64,000 bases of DNA from Candidatus Bathyarchaeota archaeon (GTDB lineage Archaea; Thermoproteota; Bathyarchaeia; Bathyarchaeales; Bathycorpusculaceae), in the NCBI GenBank assembly GCA_018396675.1, contig JAGTQX010000010.1:62001-126000 (forward strand). The letters are read 5' to 3'. Below, piece after piece: positions 12,014 to 48,264 of this stretch. Position 1 is the first letter of the stretch. The number at the start of each line of letters is the position of its first letter. The notes under the pieces were generated by a model. That model worked only from the letters and a program-made list of their open reading frames with translations. It ran no database searches and was not told the DNA's origin. The position numbers and the translations under genes were made by a program.

Positions 12014-12060
12014 ACGCTATATCTAGCGGTTTAAATCAATGTTTAACACTATTATAGTGT
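12014..12060. promoter_or_regulatory. Pair of NrdR-box-like operators
   Basis: Two palindromes lie upstream of nrdR: ACGCTATATCTAGCGG (12014-12029) and ACACTATTATAGTGT (12046-12060). The second is perfect apart from its centre. Their centres are about 31.5 bp apart, three helical turns, as for the paired NrdR boxes of bacteria (consensus near ACACTATATATAGTGT). Possible TATA elements (GCTATATC, TTTAAATC) lie inside or between them, so a bound NrdR would block transcription. Confidence 0.75.
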
Positions 12061-12082
12061 GAAGCACGCGAAAGGATAAGCC

Positions 12083-12529
12083 ATGAAGTGTCCCTACTGC
12101 GGTTCAGAAAACCTCAAAACCCTCGAAACGCGGGATTCGGCAGACAACACCATAAGACGGCGAAAAGAATGCGCAGACTGTGGAAAACGCTTCACAACCT
12201 ACGAGTACATAGAAACCATAGAGCTGATGGTGCGCAAACGCGACGGCAGACTTGAACGCTTCGATTTAAACAAAATTGTTAGAGGACTACAGAAAGCCTG
12301 CGAAAAAAGACCAGTAACCATGGAGCAGATACACACATTAGCCGAAAAAGTCAGACAAGAACTCATGCAGATGGGAAAGGAAGAAATATCTTCACAGGAA
12401 ATCGGAGACCTCGTGATGAAACACTTAAAGACTCTTGACCGCGTAGCCTACATCCGCTTCGCGTCAGTCTACCGCAAATTCGAAGAACCGGAAGACTTTC
12501 GCCGCGTGCTTCAAGAGGTGAAAAAATGA
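12083..12529 (+). CDS. nrdR: Ribonucleotide reductase repressor NrdR
   Basis: 148 residues, the standard NrdR length. An N-terminal zinc ribbon (CPYCG near residue 3, CADCGKRFTTYE near residue 31) is the DNA-binding part. Residues about 48-138 form an ATP-cone (VRKRDGRLERFDLNKIVRGLQKAC) that senses ATP and dATP. NrdR represses ribonucleotide reductase genes when dATP is abundant. The ATG has AGGAT seven bases upstream. Its TGA overlaps the ATG of nrdD, so translation is coupled, and the palindrome pair upstream suggests that it controls its own operon. NrdR is mainly bacterial, so this operon and its sites may have been acquired together. Confidence 0.96.
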   Translation: MKCPYCGSENLKTLETRDSADNTIRRRKECADCGKRFTTYEYIETIELMVRKRDGRLERFDLNKIVRGLQKACEKRPVTMEQIHTLAEKVRQELMQMGKEEISSQEIGDLVMKHLKTLDRVAYIRFASVYRKFEEPEDFRRVLQEVKK

Positions 12530-14652
12530 AGTTTGTTAGGAAGCGTGATGGAAGATTAGAACCCTTTAACCAAGAACGGATTACGAACGCGATTTGGAAA
12601 GCAGCCAAAGCTGTAGGAGGAAAAGACCGCGAACTAGCCAAAAAATTAAGCGACCAGGTTGTGACTGAACTTAAAAACCGCTTCGGAGAAGAAGGCGTCC
12701 CAACAGTTGAAGAAATCCAAGATATCGTGGAAAAAATCCTAATAGAAAATGGACACGCCAGAACCGCTAAGGCCTATATACTCTACAGAAAACAGCATCA
12801 AGACCTACGTGAACTAGCCGCGTTACTGAGCTCAGCAGACCTCGTAGACCAGTACTTGGATGTTGAAGACTGGCGAGTAAAAGAAAATTCGAACATGAGT
12901 TACTCACTACAAGGCCTAAACAATTACCTATCATCCACAGTCATAGCCAAATACTGGATAACGCGGATTTATCCGCCAAACCTTGCAGAAGCCCACTTTT
13001 CAGGCGACATGCACATCCACGACCTAGGCGTTCTAGGCCCATACTGTGTAGGCTGGGATGTCAAAGATTTGCTGCTTTCAGGATTCGGCGGCGTGCCAGG
13101 CAAAATTGAAAGCGCACCAGCGAAGCATTTCAGAACAGCTCTAGGCCAGATAGTTAACTTCTTTTACACGCTTCAAGGCGAAGCCGCAGGCGCGCAGGCT
13201 TTCTCAAACTTTGACACTTATTTGGCGCCTTTCATACGTTATGATGGCCTAAGCCAAAAAGAGGTTGAACAGGCACTTCAAGAATTCTTCTTCAACATGA
13301 ACGTGCCAACGCGAGTTGGTTTCCAAACGCCGTTCACAAACGTCACATTAGACTTGGAAATTCCAGAATTCATGAAGGACGAGCCGGCGATAATTGGCGG
13401 AAAAGTGATGGACTACACTTACGGCAGCATGGAAAAAGAAATGGAAATGTTCAACATTGCCTTTTCAGAAGTCCTCAGCAGAGGCGACTCAAAAGGAAGA
13501 GTCTTCACTTTTCCGATACCAACATACTGCATAACAAAAGATTTCAACTGGGACTCGCCGGTAGCGCAGCAAATATTCGAAGTAGCAGCCAAATACGGAG
13601 TGCCCTACTTCTCCAACTTTGTCAACAGTGACATGAAACCCGAGGACGTCAGAAGTATGTGCTGCCGCTTGAGAATAGACAACCGTGAACTCCGCAAAAG
13701 AGGAGGAGGCTTCTTCGGGGCAAACCCGTTGACCGGCAGCATAGGCGTTGTAACCCTTGACCTTCCAAGGCTTGGCTACTTATCGAAAGACGAGGACGAA
13801 TTCTTTGAGCGGCTAGAAGCTCTAATGGAAATAGCCAAAGACAGCCTAGAAATAAAGCGTAAAGTTTTGGAGCAGTTCACAGAGAGAGGCTTATACCCAT
13901 ACTCGAAACGGTACCTCCGCGGTGTAAAAGAAACGTTCGGGAAATACTGGAAAAATCACTTCTCAACAATAGGCATTTTAGGCATGAACGAAGCCATACA
14001 AAACCTCTTCGGCTACAGCATAGCCACACGAGAAGGCCTCGAATTCGCAGTGAAAACGCTAAACTTCATGCGGGAAAGACTTTCAGACTTCCAAGAAGAA
14101 ACTGGAAACATTTACAACTTGGAGGCTACACCGGCGGAAGGCGCAAGCTACAGACTGGCACGCATAGACAAACGTAAATATCCAGACATAATCGTGGCAA
14201 ACGAGAAACACTTAGCTAAAGGCGCAGAACCCTTCTACACCAACTCGACGCAACTGCCAGTGGATCATGAAGCCGACCTGTTTGAGGCTTTAGAGCATCA
14301 AGACAAGCTTCAGACGCTCTATACTGGCGGCACAGTCTTCCACATCTATCTTGGCGAAAGACTCCACTCTTGGAGAGCCGCAGCCGAGCTGGTACGCAAG
14401 GTGGCGTGGAACTTCCGTCTGCCATACTTCACGCTCACGCCTACGTTCAGTATTTGTCCAACACACGGCTACATAAGTGGCGAACATAGAAAGTGCCCCA
14501 GATGCGGCGCAAACTGCGAAGTTTACTCGCGGGTCGTAGGCTACTTGAGGCCGGTGGACCAGTGGAACGACGGAAAACAAGCGGAATTCACAATACGTAA
14601 AACCTTTGAGAAAACCACTATAGTCACACAAGCAATGGTGCCAGCCCAGTGA
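12526..14652 (+). CDS. nrdD: Anaerobic (class III) ribonucleoside-triphosphate reductase
   Basis: 708 residues. It reduces ribonucleoside triphosphates to deoxynucleotides using a glycyl radical and is destroyed by oxygen. Residues about 1-90 are an ATP-cone (VRKRDGRLEPFNQERITNAI). The active-site Cys are visible at GPYCVGWD and at SMCCRLR (the thiyl radical site). The C terminus has the zinc site CPTH...CPRCGANC and the glycyl radical loop RVVGYLRP, where Gly holds the radical. All key residues are intact. The gene overlaps nrdR by four bases and is followed seven bases later by its activase nrdG. Confidence 0.97.
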   Translation: MKFVRKRDGRLEPFNQERITNAIWKAAKAVGGKDRELAKKLSDQVVTELKNRFGEEGVPTVEEIQDIVEKILIENGHARTAKAYILYRKQHQDLRELAALLSSADLVDQYLDVEDWRVKENSNMSYSLQGLNNYLSSTVIAKYWITRIYPPNLAEAHFSGDMHIHDLGVLGPYCVGWDVKDLLLSGFGGVPGKIESAPAKHFRTALGQIVNFFYTLQGEAAGAQAFSNFDTYLAPFIRYDGLSQKEVEQALQEFFFNMNVPTRVGFQTPFTNVTLDLEIPEFMKDEPAIIGGKVMDYTYGSMEKEMEMFNIAFSEVLSRGDSKGRVFTFPIPTYCITKDFNWDSPVAQQIFEVAAKYGVPYFSNFVNSDMKPEDVRSMCCRLRIDNRELRKRGGGFFGANPLTGSIGVVTLDLPRLGYLSKDEDEFFERLEALMEIAKDSLEIKRKVLEQFTERGLYPYSKRYLRGVKETFGKYWKNHFSTIGILGMNEAIQNLFGYSIATREGLEFAVKTLNFMRERLSDFQEETGNIYNLEATPAEGASYRLARIDKRKYPDIIVANEKHLAKGAEPFYTNSTQLPVDHEADLFEALEHQDKLQTLYTGGTVFHIYLGERLHSWRAAAELVRKVAWNFRLPYFTLTPTFSICPTHGYISGEHRKCPRCGANCEVYSRVVGYLRPVDQWNDGKQAEFTIRKTFEKTTIVTQAMVPAQ

Positions 14653-14659
14653 AAAACCC

Positions 14660-15337
14660 ATGAAGTTCAGCGGAATCCAAAAAACAAGCCTAATCGATTA
14701 CCCAGAAAGAATAGCCGCTGTGCTTTTTACGCCAGGCTGCAATCTGCGTTGCCCTTACTGTTACAACTGGCGCATAGCGGTAGACCCTAAACCGCCGTTT
14801 CTAAACGAGGAAGCCGCCATACAAATGCTTGAGGAACGCAAAAAATACGTTGACGCCGTCGTTGTAACAGGCGGCGAACCGACAATCCACAAGGAACTTC
14901 CAAGATTCTTGAAGAAACTTAAAGAAAGGGGGTTTACCGTAAAACTGGACACGAACGGTTTTAACCCAAGAGTGTTAGAAGAGTCGCTTCCACACGTGGA
15001 TTACGTGGCTTTAGACATAAAAACTTCACCAGAAAAATACCATCTCGTAGGAGCAAAAGACACGGCGGCGCTTCTCCAAACAATCGAAATTTTGAAAACT
15101 GGAAAAATCGAGTACGAATTTAGAACAACCGTCGTGCCAAAAATCATAGAAGAAAAAGACATAACCCGAATAGGCGAGATAGCGAAAGACGCGAGAAACT
15201 ACGCACTGCAACAGTTCATACCCGAAGATGTTCTGGATAAGACTTTTCAAACAGTTAAACCTTACCCGCCGGAAGTCATCAATGAATTCGCTGAAACACT
15301 GAAAAAATACGTGAAAAAAGTTGTTCTCCGAGTTTGA
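14660..15337 (+). CDS. nrdG: Anaerobic ribonucleotide reductase activating enzyme
   Basis: 225 residues with the radical SAM cluster CNLRCPYC near residue 30 (FTPGCNLRCPYCYN), VVVTGGEPTIH near residue 73 (SAM binding) and VKLDTNGFNP. The enzyme places the glycyl radical on NrdD using a 4Fe-4S cluster, SAM and an electron from flavodoxin or ferredoxin. The N terminus GIQKTSLIDYPERIAAVLF is typical of the NrdG2 branch found beside archaeal and anaerobic-bacterial nrdD. It lies seven bases after nrdD in the nrdR-nrdD-nrdG operon. Confidence 0.95.
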   Translation: MKFSGIQKTSLIDYPERIAAVLFTPGCNLRCPYCYNWRIAVDPKPPFLNEEAAIQMLEERKKYVDAVVVTGGEPTIHKELPRFLKKLKERGFTVKLDTNGFNPRVLEESLPHVDYVALDIKTSPEKYHLVGAKDTAALLQTIEILKTGKIEYEFRTTVVPKIIEEKDITRIGEIAKDARNYALQQFIPEDVLDKTFQTVKPYPPEVINEFAETLKKYVKKVVLRV

Positions 15338-43433: not shown

Positions 43434-43886
43434 TCAAAACTGTTTAAGCACATCACTTTTCTCCATAATGTAACCGCAATAATGACACTTCAGAATCAAC
43501 GGCTCCTCACTTTGAACATAAAACTTGGATTGAACAGGCTCGTTGCTGTTACTTATACACGCTGGATTAGCACATTTAATTATGCCTTCAATAACGCTGG
43601 GAAGCTTAACCCTCTGTTTCTCAACAACATCATAGTTACGAATAATGTTTATAGTCGCATGTGGCGCCAGCAAAGCAATTTTGTGCACTTCTTGCGAGTT
43701 AAGCTCTCGACCCTCAATTTTCACAATATCTTTCACCTTAAACCGTTTGCTAGGAACATTAACCGCAATAGTCATCACCCGTTTTTCTTTTCCTGTTATT
43801 CCCAAAATTTTAATAACGTCCAAAGCGTGCCCGCCAGTAATGTGGTCTATAACGGTGCCATCCTTAATCTTCGAAACATACAACAT
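43434..43886 (-). CDS. pyrI: Aspartate carbamoyltransferase regulatory chain
   Basis: 150 residues from the ATG at 43886, the normal PyrI length. The N-terminal allosteric domain (SKIKDGTVIDHITGGHALDVIKILG) binds CTP/ATP; the C-terminal domain has the zinc Cys pairs CANPACIS near residue 107 and CHYCGYI near residue 138 that join it to PyrB. It tunes the first step of pyrimidine synthesis. Unusually it is divergent from pyrB rather than in one operon with it; the two starts are about 160 bases apart. Confidence 0.95.
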   Translation of the reverse strand: MLYVSKIKDGTVIDHITGGHALDVIKILGITGKEKRVMTIAVNVPSKRFKVKDIVKIEGRELNSQEVHKIALLAPHATINIIRNYDVVEKQRVKLPSVIEGIIKCANPACISNSNEPVQSKFYVQSEEPLILKCHYCGYIMEKSDVLKQF

Positions 43887-44039
43887 TGTTTCACTCGTAA
43901 ACTGACACCCCCTCGAGAGGCTATAGCATAAGCGAAGATAAAAGGTTTTTACCATTCATGCACCGCAAAATCCACGCATAAAAATGTGTGAGCAAGCGCA
44001 TGAAAAGTTATTTAAGTACAGCACAGACTTTTTGTCTAG

Positions 44040-44969
<930 letters not shown>

Positions 44970-44991: not shown

Positions 44992-47226
44992 CTATGGATA
45001 ACGCTTAAAAAACGTCAACGTACCCACAGAACCGCACGATGGACACTTATGCAGCAGCCCAAACCAGCTTCGACCACATTGATTGCAGTGGGTTAAGTTG
45101 CGGTTAAAGATAAAATACTCAAAATCGCCTCTCTCCGCGAACCTCTTTGTCAGTCGAAGAAGCGTTTCAGGCGTGTACTCGACATCGCCAAGCTCGATGA
45201 CAGTGCTTTTTCCGCCGCTGAGCAACTCGTTAAGTTTCTTCTCGACAGCCAAAGTTTTCTCCGCGATTTCACTGTTTTGAAGGGCTATTCTGCTAATAGA
45301 CTGGTAGTATGGTTTTTCTCGTGTGCCCTGAAAGCGTACTTTTGCAATGCCGTATCTTTCAATGTCTTGCCGTGCCAATCGTTCAGAAACCTCAAGATAT
45401 GGCAAAGCTGAAAGCAGTAGACGCTTTTCCTGCCGCCTTCCACTTTTGAGGAGATGTTCGGAAATTTGCCTTGTAATTTCCACAGCGAAGTCTAAAGTCT
45501 GTTCATCATCATAAATTCTTTTTCCACTGAATGCTTCGGCAGACTCTCTTAACCCAACAATGTTTACCAAATGCGCAGAATTCTCAAGTCTAAAATACTT
45601 GTCGGCGCCAGTGGACTGCATCAAGAACGGCAGAAAATTTTTCCCGCGCTGTTTTAAGGCTTCATTTTTGATTTCTAAAGCGCGCTTAGCCATTTCCACT
45701 CTCTCCTTAAGGAGGTTAAAAAATCGCGTTCTATCCTTTTCACATTCGTAGGCTATCCGCGGCAAGTTAATTGTCACACATCCTAAAACGCCTGTACGTA
45801 GTGTATCAATTTCCCAGTCTCCATTCAAATCCGCTTTAAGCACAAATCCTGGCGGTGAAAAAACCGAATATTGTTCACTGTTTCCAGAAATGTTTGCAAA
45901 ATAAACCGTTCCAGCATGTGCCACTACATTGCAGGCTTTAATAAGTGCAAGCTCAACATCACTATCATTCATTCTTTCGCGGCGTATCTTAACGGTAAGT
46001 GTAGGATTCAAAAACGGTCGTTGCATGTTTTCTTCGCTGAACACATCAAGTATAATGGATGCAAGCGTTTGGCTTTCTTCGACATAACTGCCATAAGTGT
46101 CAATAGAATTGGTGTTAACTCCAAAAGCTTGTTTGTCCTCCAAAAAGCTTGGCATTGTCAAATCTAAGTTGAATGAGGCATCCACATGCCAACTAATGTT
46201 AAAGAGGAAACGTTTCAAAGTCTCCTTAACAGTGGTTTCGCTTAATCCCCTAATGAAAGGCGCCAAAAAAATATTGAAATACTCCAATGTTTGTGCTTCG
46301 CAAGTTTCTCTTGCAGAAAACAAGAGCACGTTAAAAATCGTGTTAAGTGCGGATTCCAAGCTTTTCGGAGACGTGCAAGAAGGTTTAAAAGTGTTTAATT
46401 GCTGGGGATTTAAGCCGTTTTTTATGAAAAATCGCAAATCATGAATCACGGAGCAAGGCTTCAGAATCCACGAGCTTAGGTTATGAATGTGAATTTCACC
46501 AGAAAGATATGCGTCCGCGATGTCTCTTGGAAGCACGTTTAAAAGCATGTACTCTCTGAGAACGGTTTTTCCAAACTCTTCATGCGTCAAATGGGTGGCT
46601 TTTGAAGTTTTATCGCTTGATAAAAACGCGGAGACATCATACACTGGCAGTCCAAGACGCGTTAATTTTGGGCGATATTCTTCCAAGCCTTTTTCGATTA
46701 GAATTCCATTGACGACTTCCCTTATCAGCGGAGCAGTTAAATAACGTGTTCTAGCCTTTAAAAGGCGTTTTTCTGCCTCTTTGGCGACTTTTTGTGCCAT
46801 TTCAACAGGCATTCCAGCTTCTCTTACAAGCGAATCAGTAATCCTATTCACGTCGAACTCTTCAAGCGTGAAACGTGAAGTGCGGACAAGAATTTTTTGT
46901 GATTTAAGCCTTTTCTTTTCGATTTCTTCAGCCACATCAATAACCATCTTGCCCAAATCAGTCAAGCGGTACTTTTTAGACTCCACGTCAACCTCAATTA
47001 AACCAGCTTTAAGCAGAAACTTCAAATGATAAGCAAAACGTCCAGCATCACGACTAGGACTCATCTTCAGCAAGCTCATAAGCTCAGTGTAAGAAAGCGC
47101 GTCATGGTCAAAAAGCAAGTTTAAAATATGAAGCCTAACGGCTGACGAAACCGCCTTTAAAACACGAACACCATGTGAACGCTGCTGAACAGACAAACTC
47201 GCCCAACCCCCTTTATTAAACACCAA
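44992..47226 (-). CDS. NrdD-like pseudoenzyme fused to an ArsR-type DNA-binding domain
   Basis: 744 residues in three parts. Residues about 15-100: winged helix of ArsR type (VSSAVRLHILNLLFDHDALSYTELMSLLKMSPSRDAGRFAYHLKFLLKAGLIEV, seen as segments). Residues about 108-200: ATP-cone (VRTSRFTLEEFDVNRITDSLV). Residues about 200-744: homologous to NrdD, but key parts are changed. The C-terminal zinc site is kept (CNQCG, CPSCG), yet the glycyl radical loop is gone (ends GTLTFFKRYP), and the thiyl-radical Cys segment CCRL of the true NrdD in this window is SPPGFVLK here. One Cys (KPCSVIHDL) remains. It probably senses nucleotides and regulates DNA. A TTG at 47196 with GGGGG upstream could be the start. 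Confidence 0.8.
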   Translation of the reverse strand: MVFNKGGWASLSVQQRSHGVRVLKAVSSAVRLHILNLLFDHDALSYTELMSLLKMSPSRDAGRFAYHLKFLLKAGLIEVDVESKKYRLTDLGKMVIDVAEEIEKKRLKSQKILVRTSRFTLEEFDVNRITDSLVREAGMPVEMAQKVAKEAEKRLLKARTRYLTAPLIREVVNGILIEKGLEEYRPKLTRLGLPVYDVSAFLSSDKTSKATHLTHEEFGKTVLREYMLLNVLPRDIADAYLSGEIHIHNLSSWILKPCSVIHDLRFFIKNGLNPQQLNTFKPSCTSPKSLESALNTIFNVLLFSARETCEAQTLEYFNIFLAPFIRGLSETTVKETLKRFLFNISWHVDASFNLDLTMPSFLEDKQAFGVNTNSIDTYGSYVEESQTLASIILDVFSEENMQRPFLNPTLTVKIRRERMNDSDVELALIKACNVVAHAGTVYFANISGNSEQYSVFSPPGFVLKADLNGDWEIDTLRTGVLGCVTINLPRIAYECEKDRTRFFNLLKERVEMAKRALEIKNEALKQRGKNFLPFLMQSTGADKYFRLENSAHLVNIVGLRESAEAFSGKRIYDDEQTLDFAVEITRQISEHLLKSGRRQEKRLLLSALPYLEVSERLARQDIERYGIAKVRFQGTREKPYYQSISRIALQNSEIAEKTLAVEKKLNELLSGGKSTVIELGDVEYTPETLLRLTKRFAERGDFEYFIFNRNLTHCNQCGRSWFGLLHKCPSCGSVGTLTFFKRYP

Positions 47227-47312
47227 ACACTCGGGCTAGATAAGGGTTTAAAAGTTAAGAAAACACCTTTATTAAACTAACACAAAAAGTTACATAAACA
47301 AAAACGCGGATA

Positions 47313-47390
47313 GGGGCTGTCGGCTAGCTTGGTCTAGGCTCTGAGCCTCGGGCGCTCGGGACCCCGGTTCAAATCCGGGCAGCCCCACCA
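47313..47390 (+). tRNA. tRNA-Pro (CGG)
   Basis: Acceptor GGGGCTG pairs with CAGCCCC, followed by A and an encoded CCA. Anticodon arm TGAGC-CTCGGGC-GCTCG gives CGG, and the T arm CCCGG-TTCAAAT-CCGGG is standard. No intron. The variable region appears one base short (GGAC). It lies just before a nucleotidyltransferase-like gene on the other strand. Confidence 0.93.
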
Positions 47391-47421: not shown

Positions 47422-48264
47422 TTATCTAACTACGTCTTCTACTTCTCGGTACCAGGGTTTAGCTGTTCCTTTCTGTGCCCTTTTAAGCCAATCTTTAGTT
47501 TTAGGCGTTTCGTCAATTATTTTCAGCAACTTGTCTACTCTCTCAATTATCAAATCGTGGTCTTCGCCTCTGATGCTGCCTTCGGAGCTAAATTTGTCCG
47601 CGTACTGCTTCACAAGTTTTAGATTTTGCACGGCGTCGTACCAAAAGCCCCAGTCCTTTGCTAAAGTGTCCGCAATGTAACGGCCATCAATAACCTCTCT
47701 GGTTTTAGATTCACTCACGTCGTGGCCGACGAGGAGAACTATCAAGTCGACAATGTCCTTCAAGTTTATGTTGTGGATCTGTAGTTTTTCAAGCACAATG
47801 TCTTCCAAAGTTATTGTGGGAAAGTCAAGTTCCAGTCTTCCCTGTCCAGGTTTTGAACCGAAATGTACATCGTGGCTGAATTCAAGCTTGTCAAAAAAGA
47901 TGTCCACGTGATACTTGTTTTCGGGGTGGTGATACATCATTCTAGTTCCTCCAAAAAGCGCGTTCAGCCTGGATTCCGGTTTAAAACGCAGCTTTTTTTC
48001 GAAGAAGTTCACTATTTCTTTTCTCTGCTTTCCATAAGCCATAAAGTCAACATCAGTGAATTGTGAACTACTTGAATTAAGCCTCTTGACTTTTCTGTAG
48101 ATGTCAACAGCGTTTGGGATATTGGCGGAACGTATGTAGACGGCGACTGCTCCAATAATCCTTAAAATCACATTATCTTTGCTTGCTTGTTCAACTATAG
48201 ATGTTGCCTCTTTTATGAAATCTGCGTCAGATAATTTCTCAGGCGTCATAGAAAGCTTCACCAA
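47422..48264 (-). CDS. Nucleotidyltransferase-fold protein, AbiEii/MNT-like
   Basis: 280 residues. The N-terminal half has the nucleotidyltransferase pattern: IIGAVAVYIRS near residue 38, SQFTDVDFMAYGKQRKEIVNFF with the DxD-like acidic pair near residue 70, and YHVDIFFDKLEFSHD with a further Asp near residue 118. The C-terminal half is helical. This resembles the AbiEii/MNT toxin-type transferases, though no antitoxin gene is obvious next to it. It lies just after tRNA-Pro, convergent. Target RNA or protein is unknown. Confidence 0.72.
   Translation of the reverse strand: MVKLSMTPEKLSDADFIKEATSIVEQASKDNVILRIIGAVAVYIRSANIPNAVDIYRKVKRLNSSSSQFTDVDFMAYGKQRKEIVNFFEKKLRFKPESRLNALFGGTRMMYHHPENKYHVDIFFDKLEFSHDVHFGSKPGQGRLELDFPTITLEDIVLEKLQIHNINLKDIVDLIVLLVGHDVSESKTREVIDGRYIADTLAKDWGFWYDAVQNLKLVKQYADKFSSEGSIRGEDHDLIIERVDKLLKIIDETPKTKDWLKRAQKGTAKPWYREVEDVVR

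Follow-up and report, generated by a model that had tools for sequence, protein, structure and literature searches.

NrdR is a bacterial repressor of ribonucleotide reductase (RNR) genes, built from a zinc ribbon and an ATP-cone. In the enzyme-derived transcription factors MocR/GabR and ROK/NagC, a helix-turn-helix (HTH) is joined to an enzyme fold that is reused as an effector sensor; we know of no earlier transcription factor in which that fold comes from a glycyl radical enzyme or a reductase. In NrdR of S. coelicolor, the phosphates of the bound nucleotide are contacted by K50 and R51 and its adenine by E56; the same study calls NrdR rare among archaea (PMC9110341). In the open-access literature (most subscription papers lay outside this scope), we found no description of the protein family reported below, nor an account of RNR transcription control in most archaea.

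We analysed a 64,000-nucleotide stretch of a Candidatus Bathyarchaeota contig (the window), in which a putative regulator gene, here called psi, forms a single unbroken open reading frame. Its product consists, from N- to C-terminus, of a winged HTH, an ATP-cone, a class III reductase (NRDD) fold and a zinc ribbon. We consider it probable, at roughly 0.7, that psi is a class III RNR, now catalytically dead, which has become a one-component transcription regulator. The features concerned are as follows.

44992-47226, minus strand: psi open reading frame, 744 amino acids as listed, likely start TTG at 47196 (Leu11)
46936-47169, minus strand: winged HTH of psi, residues 20-97 (DUF7347 / HTH_5), without Cys
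46645-46890, minus strand: ATP-cone-like domain of psi, residues 113-194, signature VRTS...E.F...(K/R)I and YLTAPLIRE
45022-46599, minus strand: NRDD (class III RNR) fold of psi, residues 210-735
45838-45858, minus strand: thiyl-Cys-equivalent loop of psi, residues 457-463, SPPGFVL against SMCCRL of true NrdD, no Cys
45034-45087, minus strand: zinc ribbon CxxC...CxxC of psi (C714, C717, C728, C731), at least 90% conserved
47244-47267, minus strand: predicted psi promoter, TATA-like CTTTTAAACCC with GGTGTTTTCTTAAC before it
44049-44969, plus strand: pyrB (aspartate carbamoyltransferase), identified from sequence, convergent and conserved across the phylum
43434-43955, minus strand: pyrI (aspartate carbamoyltransferase regulatory chain), identified from sequence
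12526-14652, plus strand: intact NrdD, used for comparison

The in-frame TTG is likely to be the true start of psi rather than the listed one, because homologues begin there and a Shine-Dalgarno-like GGGGG precedes it. A tRNA-Pro (cgg; 47313-47390, plus strand), divergent from psi, lies between psi and an upstream AbiEii-like nucleotidyltransferase frame (47422-48264; Pfam E 0.0013, below cut-off); a similar tRNA-like sequence is found upstream of psi in many members of the window’s family, and L064 is one other locus with a relative of the AbiEii-like frame close to psi.

Pfam matched the head of the protein, residues 22-97, to DUF7347 (E 2.6e-7) and HTH_5 (E 2.2e-5), the next region, residues 114-184, to the ATP-cone (E 2.4e-5, 0.6 bit below the curated cut-off for the window’s member) and residues 210-735 to NRDD (E 6.4e-75). 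The structure model (pLDDT 85, pTM 0.72) had NrdD as its best structural matches (9d3x, E 1e-28; 4coj, TM 0.72 by target length), while the head matched the winged-helix proteins HlyU and SmtB. HTH, ATP-cone and NRDD were all matched in 38/38 diverse members scanned across the phylum. The earlier note, that a DNA-binding domain and an ATP-cone stand in front of a protein keeping the shape and zinc site of a class III reductase, is borne out by these matches and by the four zinc-ribbon cysteines.

Alignment with the window’s intact NrdD revealed that psi lacks the thiyl-Cys pair, the partner-Cys motif (GPYC / RPFC), the TPAE loop and the Gly loop. CC379/380 of NrdD, the thiyl Cys within SMCCRL, falls opposite PPGFVL, and the psi chain ends at ‘TFFKRYP’, ahead of the RVVGYLRP glycyl-radical loop. 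The CC pair is absent from HTH-bearing members, and no such member retains the full active-site set (the CC pair with the partner Cys, the TPAE loop and the Gly loop), nor does any of about 80 relatives. The NrdD equivalog model TIGR02487 scored psi at 269.4 bits, under its cut-off of 326.35. The loss of the glycyl radical loop and thiyl Cys region, as noted earlier, thus holds by the alignment and structure prediction that had been proposed as a check: the radical residues are absent from an NrdD-like fold, and none was recovered at a shifted position, C258 (LKPCSV) alone lying near the partner-Cys position and not being conserved among relatives. We considered and rejected the idea that psi is a frameshifted or truncated true NrdD; the end of pyrB is 22 bp from the psi stop, leaving no room for a hidden truncated tail, and the loop is missing in all relatives. 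Eroded glycyl-loop remnants (for example, TKAFGRYKS), present in f20 members and others, fit descent of the psi family from active NrdD.

A profile search with the HTH and ATP-cone detected psi relatives in 242 of 397 sampled genomes of one phylum and, at genus level, in 98 of 167; a single-sequence scan of genome contigs gave no match. Full-length, collinear open frames of 38-65% identity were present in most of 61 relative genomes, and almost all named full-length relatives are from Bathyarchaeota. The NRDD parts of members formed one clade apart from true NrdDs (SH-aLRT 100, in a quick tree with some long branches). Invariant residues are concentrated in the HTH (R31, H67, Y86 and G92) and ATP-cone, which are conserved better than the rest of the protein, and no column that is invariant or nearly so holds a Cys outside the zinc ribbon. 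The psi family is a real and widespread pseudoenzyme family, very probably with a regulatory role linked to RNR supply, and, as judged from sequence, an ancient phylum-wide one rather than a local fusion, which amends the first reading. That psi is a decaying pseudogene, as its lost catalytic residues could suggest, is scarcely credible given the open full-length frames, the invariant HTH, ATP-cone and zinc residues, and an intact frame already seen to be conserved across genera. One ammonia oxidiser’s psi (L078, G315) is split across two frames, through sequencing error or real decay.

The psi protein resembles NrdR in combining a DNA-binding module with an ATP-cone and in its genetic linkage to RNR genes of more than one class. 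It differs in that the module is a winged HTH and not an N-terminal zinc ribbon (TIGR00244 is not among psi matches), in carrying a whole dead reductase, and in an ATP-cone without the KR phosphate pair; its own promoter has no NrdR box, and NrdR and psi can coexist in one genome. When psi was aligned to S. coelicolor NrdR, K50/R51 corresponded to T116/S117, E56 to E122 and F58 to F124, with TS at the pair position in 75/80 psi members. Since the phosphate-contacting KR is TS in psi, psi may bind another ligand or none; adenine-nucleotide sensing is plausible. A neighbouring intact NrdD (L022) has the same VRTS-type ATP-cone variant. With NrdD, psi shares a homologous fold, the ATP-cone position and the C-terminal zinc ribbon, but it has lost the thiyl Cys, partner Cys, TPAE loop and glycyl-radical loop and has gained an N-terminal HTH. 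The winged-helix fold resembles that of ArsR/SmtB regulators (as in the HlyU and SmtB matches), but the psi HTH (residues 20-97) has no Cys, the presumed sensing part lies elsewhere, and metalloregulator model NF033788 gave 28.6 bits, under its cut-off of 55. The MocR/GabR and ROK/NagC factors share with psi the joining of an HTH to an enzyme fold; their folds are unrelated to that of psi.

The usual layout is psi, an RNR gene in the next slot and then a convergent pyrB, which comes directly after psi in loci without the RNR gene; the slot is empty in the window and its family. The class II gene nrdJ is the next gene 3' of psi, in the same orientation, in 24/24 loci of family f19 (6 + 18) and likewise in L236 (f64), L080 (f57) and L088 (f10). 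A true class III nrdD lies directly 3' of psi in 13 order-level Bathyarchaeial genomes and further named records, and several Bathyarchaeial families have a class III nrdD in this slot. L236 (psi-nrdJ-pyrB) and L237 of f63 (psi-nrdD-pyrB) share one layout with a different RNR, and in genus g38 the slot holds either native nrdD (G041, L029) or bacterial-type nrdD (G060, L030) behind one retained promoter element; a bacterial-type nrdD was swapped into the slot within one genus. With nrdJ or nrdD directly downstream of psi, different RNR types therefore fill one slot, although relatedness among the genomes means that the adjacency counts do not represent independent events. In some lineages, f20, f37 and f48 among them, psi has unrelated neighbours and no RNR gene beside it. 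A small glutaredoxin/NrdH-like frame lies in the psi-nrdD gap of L029, L031 and L055 and is shortened in L030, where nrdD was replaced. The nrdD at L032 (3350-6229, minus strand) has an intein-like insert at the partner-Cys site, and over-long nrdJ frames in L246 and L247 (1064-1068 amino acids) may also hold inserts.

Adjacency to RNR genes, with the retained NrdD fold and ATP-cone, would also suit a regulatory pseudo-subunit, an inactive partner of active NrdD or NrdJ that controls the enzyme by protein contact, its HTH serving dimerisation or another role. We regard this as unlikely: the adjacent partners include nrdJ, whose product is a distant relative and unlikely to form a mixed dimer with an NrdD fold, the HTH belongs to the best-conserved regions, and the window’s psi lies away from any RNR gene.

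Family f19 offers a setting in which psi occurs without NrdD. Archaeal AmoA, verified in five genomes of the 24-locus set, identifies these psi-bearing f19 members as ammonia oxidisers; in all five, psi is the only NRDD protein, class II nrdJ is present and NrdR was not found. The structure model of an f19 psi member still matched NrdD folds, with the barrel in ammonia-oxidiser psi trimmed and fast-evolving. The retained fold and zinc ribbon might suggest that psi is a working class III reductase whose radical residues have moved, or another catalyst on the NrdD scaffold, but with no Gly-radical motif, no nearly invariant Cys outside the ribbon, and a trimmed, fast-evolving barrel in aerobic ammonia oxidisers without NrdD, we hold it to be highly improbable. 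The earlier proposal, that a dead reductase has given rise to a nucleotide-sensing regulator, is instead supported by sequence comparison: every member lacks the catalytic residues, the HTH and ATP-cone are best conserved, psi is present in these aerobes without NrdD, and it repeatedly adjoins RNR genes of different classes.

Within the window, the nrdR-nrdD-nrdG genes form an operon away from psi.

12014-12060, plus strand: two NrdR-box-like sites (12014-12029 and 12046-12060) flanking a TATA-like TTTAAAT before nrdR-nrdD-nrdG
12083-12529, plus strand: true NrdR, directly upstream of nrdD
14660-15337, plus strand: NrdG activase (TIGR02495, 194.8 bits; cut-off 131.15)

The region 12014-15337 is thus itself a case of an archaeon with a true NrdR and two NrdR-box-like sites ahead of its operon, and a site with at least 12/16 NrdR-box positions occurs in the nrdD upstream stretches of 18/20 family relatives. 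The nrdJ of the window’s genome lies on another contig and has no NrdR-like box upstream (best, 10/16 positions); nrdJ was present in every genome of the family that was checked. Because nrdD carries NrdR-box-like sites, it is not likely to be the local target of psi, a further amendment to the first reading; with none at nrdJ, the most likely target in the window’s species would be nrdJ or psi itself. Alternatively, nrdD having left the locus, psi in this lineage might control other nucleotide genes (pyrBI) or only itself. The psi/pyrB convergent neighbourhood, conserved well beyond the window’s family, and the NrdR-box-like sites of the local nrdD are in keeping with this; however, convergence places the pyrB promoter far from psi, the adjacency may be an inherited neighbourhood, and nrdJ, present throughout the checked family genomes without an NrdR-like box, is free as a target, so that we think this explanation quite improbable.

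The psi-RNR gaps, mostly 190-570 bp, contain several candidate elements. A near-palindrome, TACAAAATTTTATACA, stands in several Bathyarchaeial psi-nrdD gaps at a near-constant distance ahead of a BRE/TATA-like block, and may itself partly resemble the BRE/TATA box. Ammonia-oxidiser psi-nrdJ gaps contain TATGAANTTCATA and GGTGTnAA...TTGA, and TATGAnnnTCATA occurs in 9/22 of them against 0.02 expected from shuffles, which ignore relatedness. The inverted repeat GTGTTCCCTAACAC, at the psi promoter position in some relatives, is a weak candidate for a psi self-operator, and GTGTTnnnnAACAC lies upstream of psi in 4/22 of the window’s family. We treat all gap elements as candidates only, because the shuffles ignore kinship and TACAAAATTTTATACA is possibly part TATA box. 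No operator common to all lineages was found among the upstream regions of psi and in the psi-RNR gaps, the idealised palindrome GTATAAAATTTTATAC had no match in the window’s genome at up to 2 mismatches, and there were no NrdR boxes upstream of psi.

The best explanation is that psi is an adenine-nucleotide-responsive regulator tied to RNR genes, NrdR-like in its working although its DNA-binding and body domains are different. As a dimer, the winged HTH would bind close to RNR promoters and possibly at its own promoter, and the ATP-cone would read adenine-nucleotide or dNTP levels, perhaps together with the specificity and substrate pockets that the NRDD barrel once used. Such reading would change the oligomeric state of psi and hence its DNA binding, for repression or activation. 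Whether this extends to RNR control throughout much of the phylum by a dedicated dNTP-sensing factor, a dead reductase reading the pool and setting expression of the class II or III enzyme in the next slot, we judge an even chance.

Because the family spans the phylum and often directly precedes the cell’s RNR gene, psi is probably a switch, so far unstudied, that controls how archaea supply themselves with DNA precursors. If so, it would be, to our present knowledge, the first transcription factor on a radical-reductase fold. Some ammonia oxidisers are in culture, and a conserved candidate beside their RNR gene makes archaeal RNR control testable.
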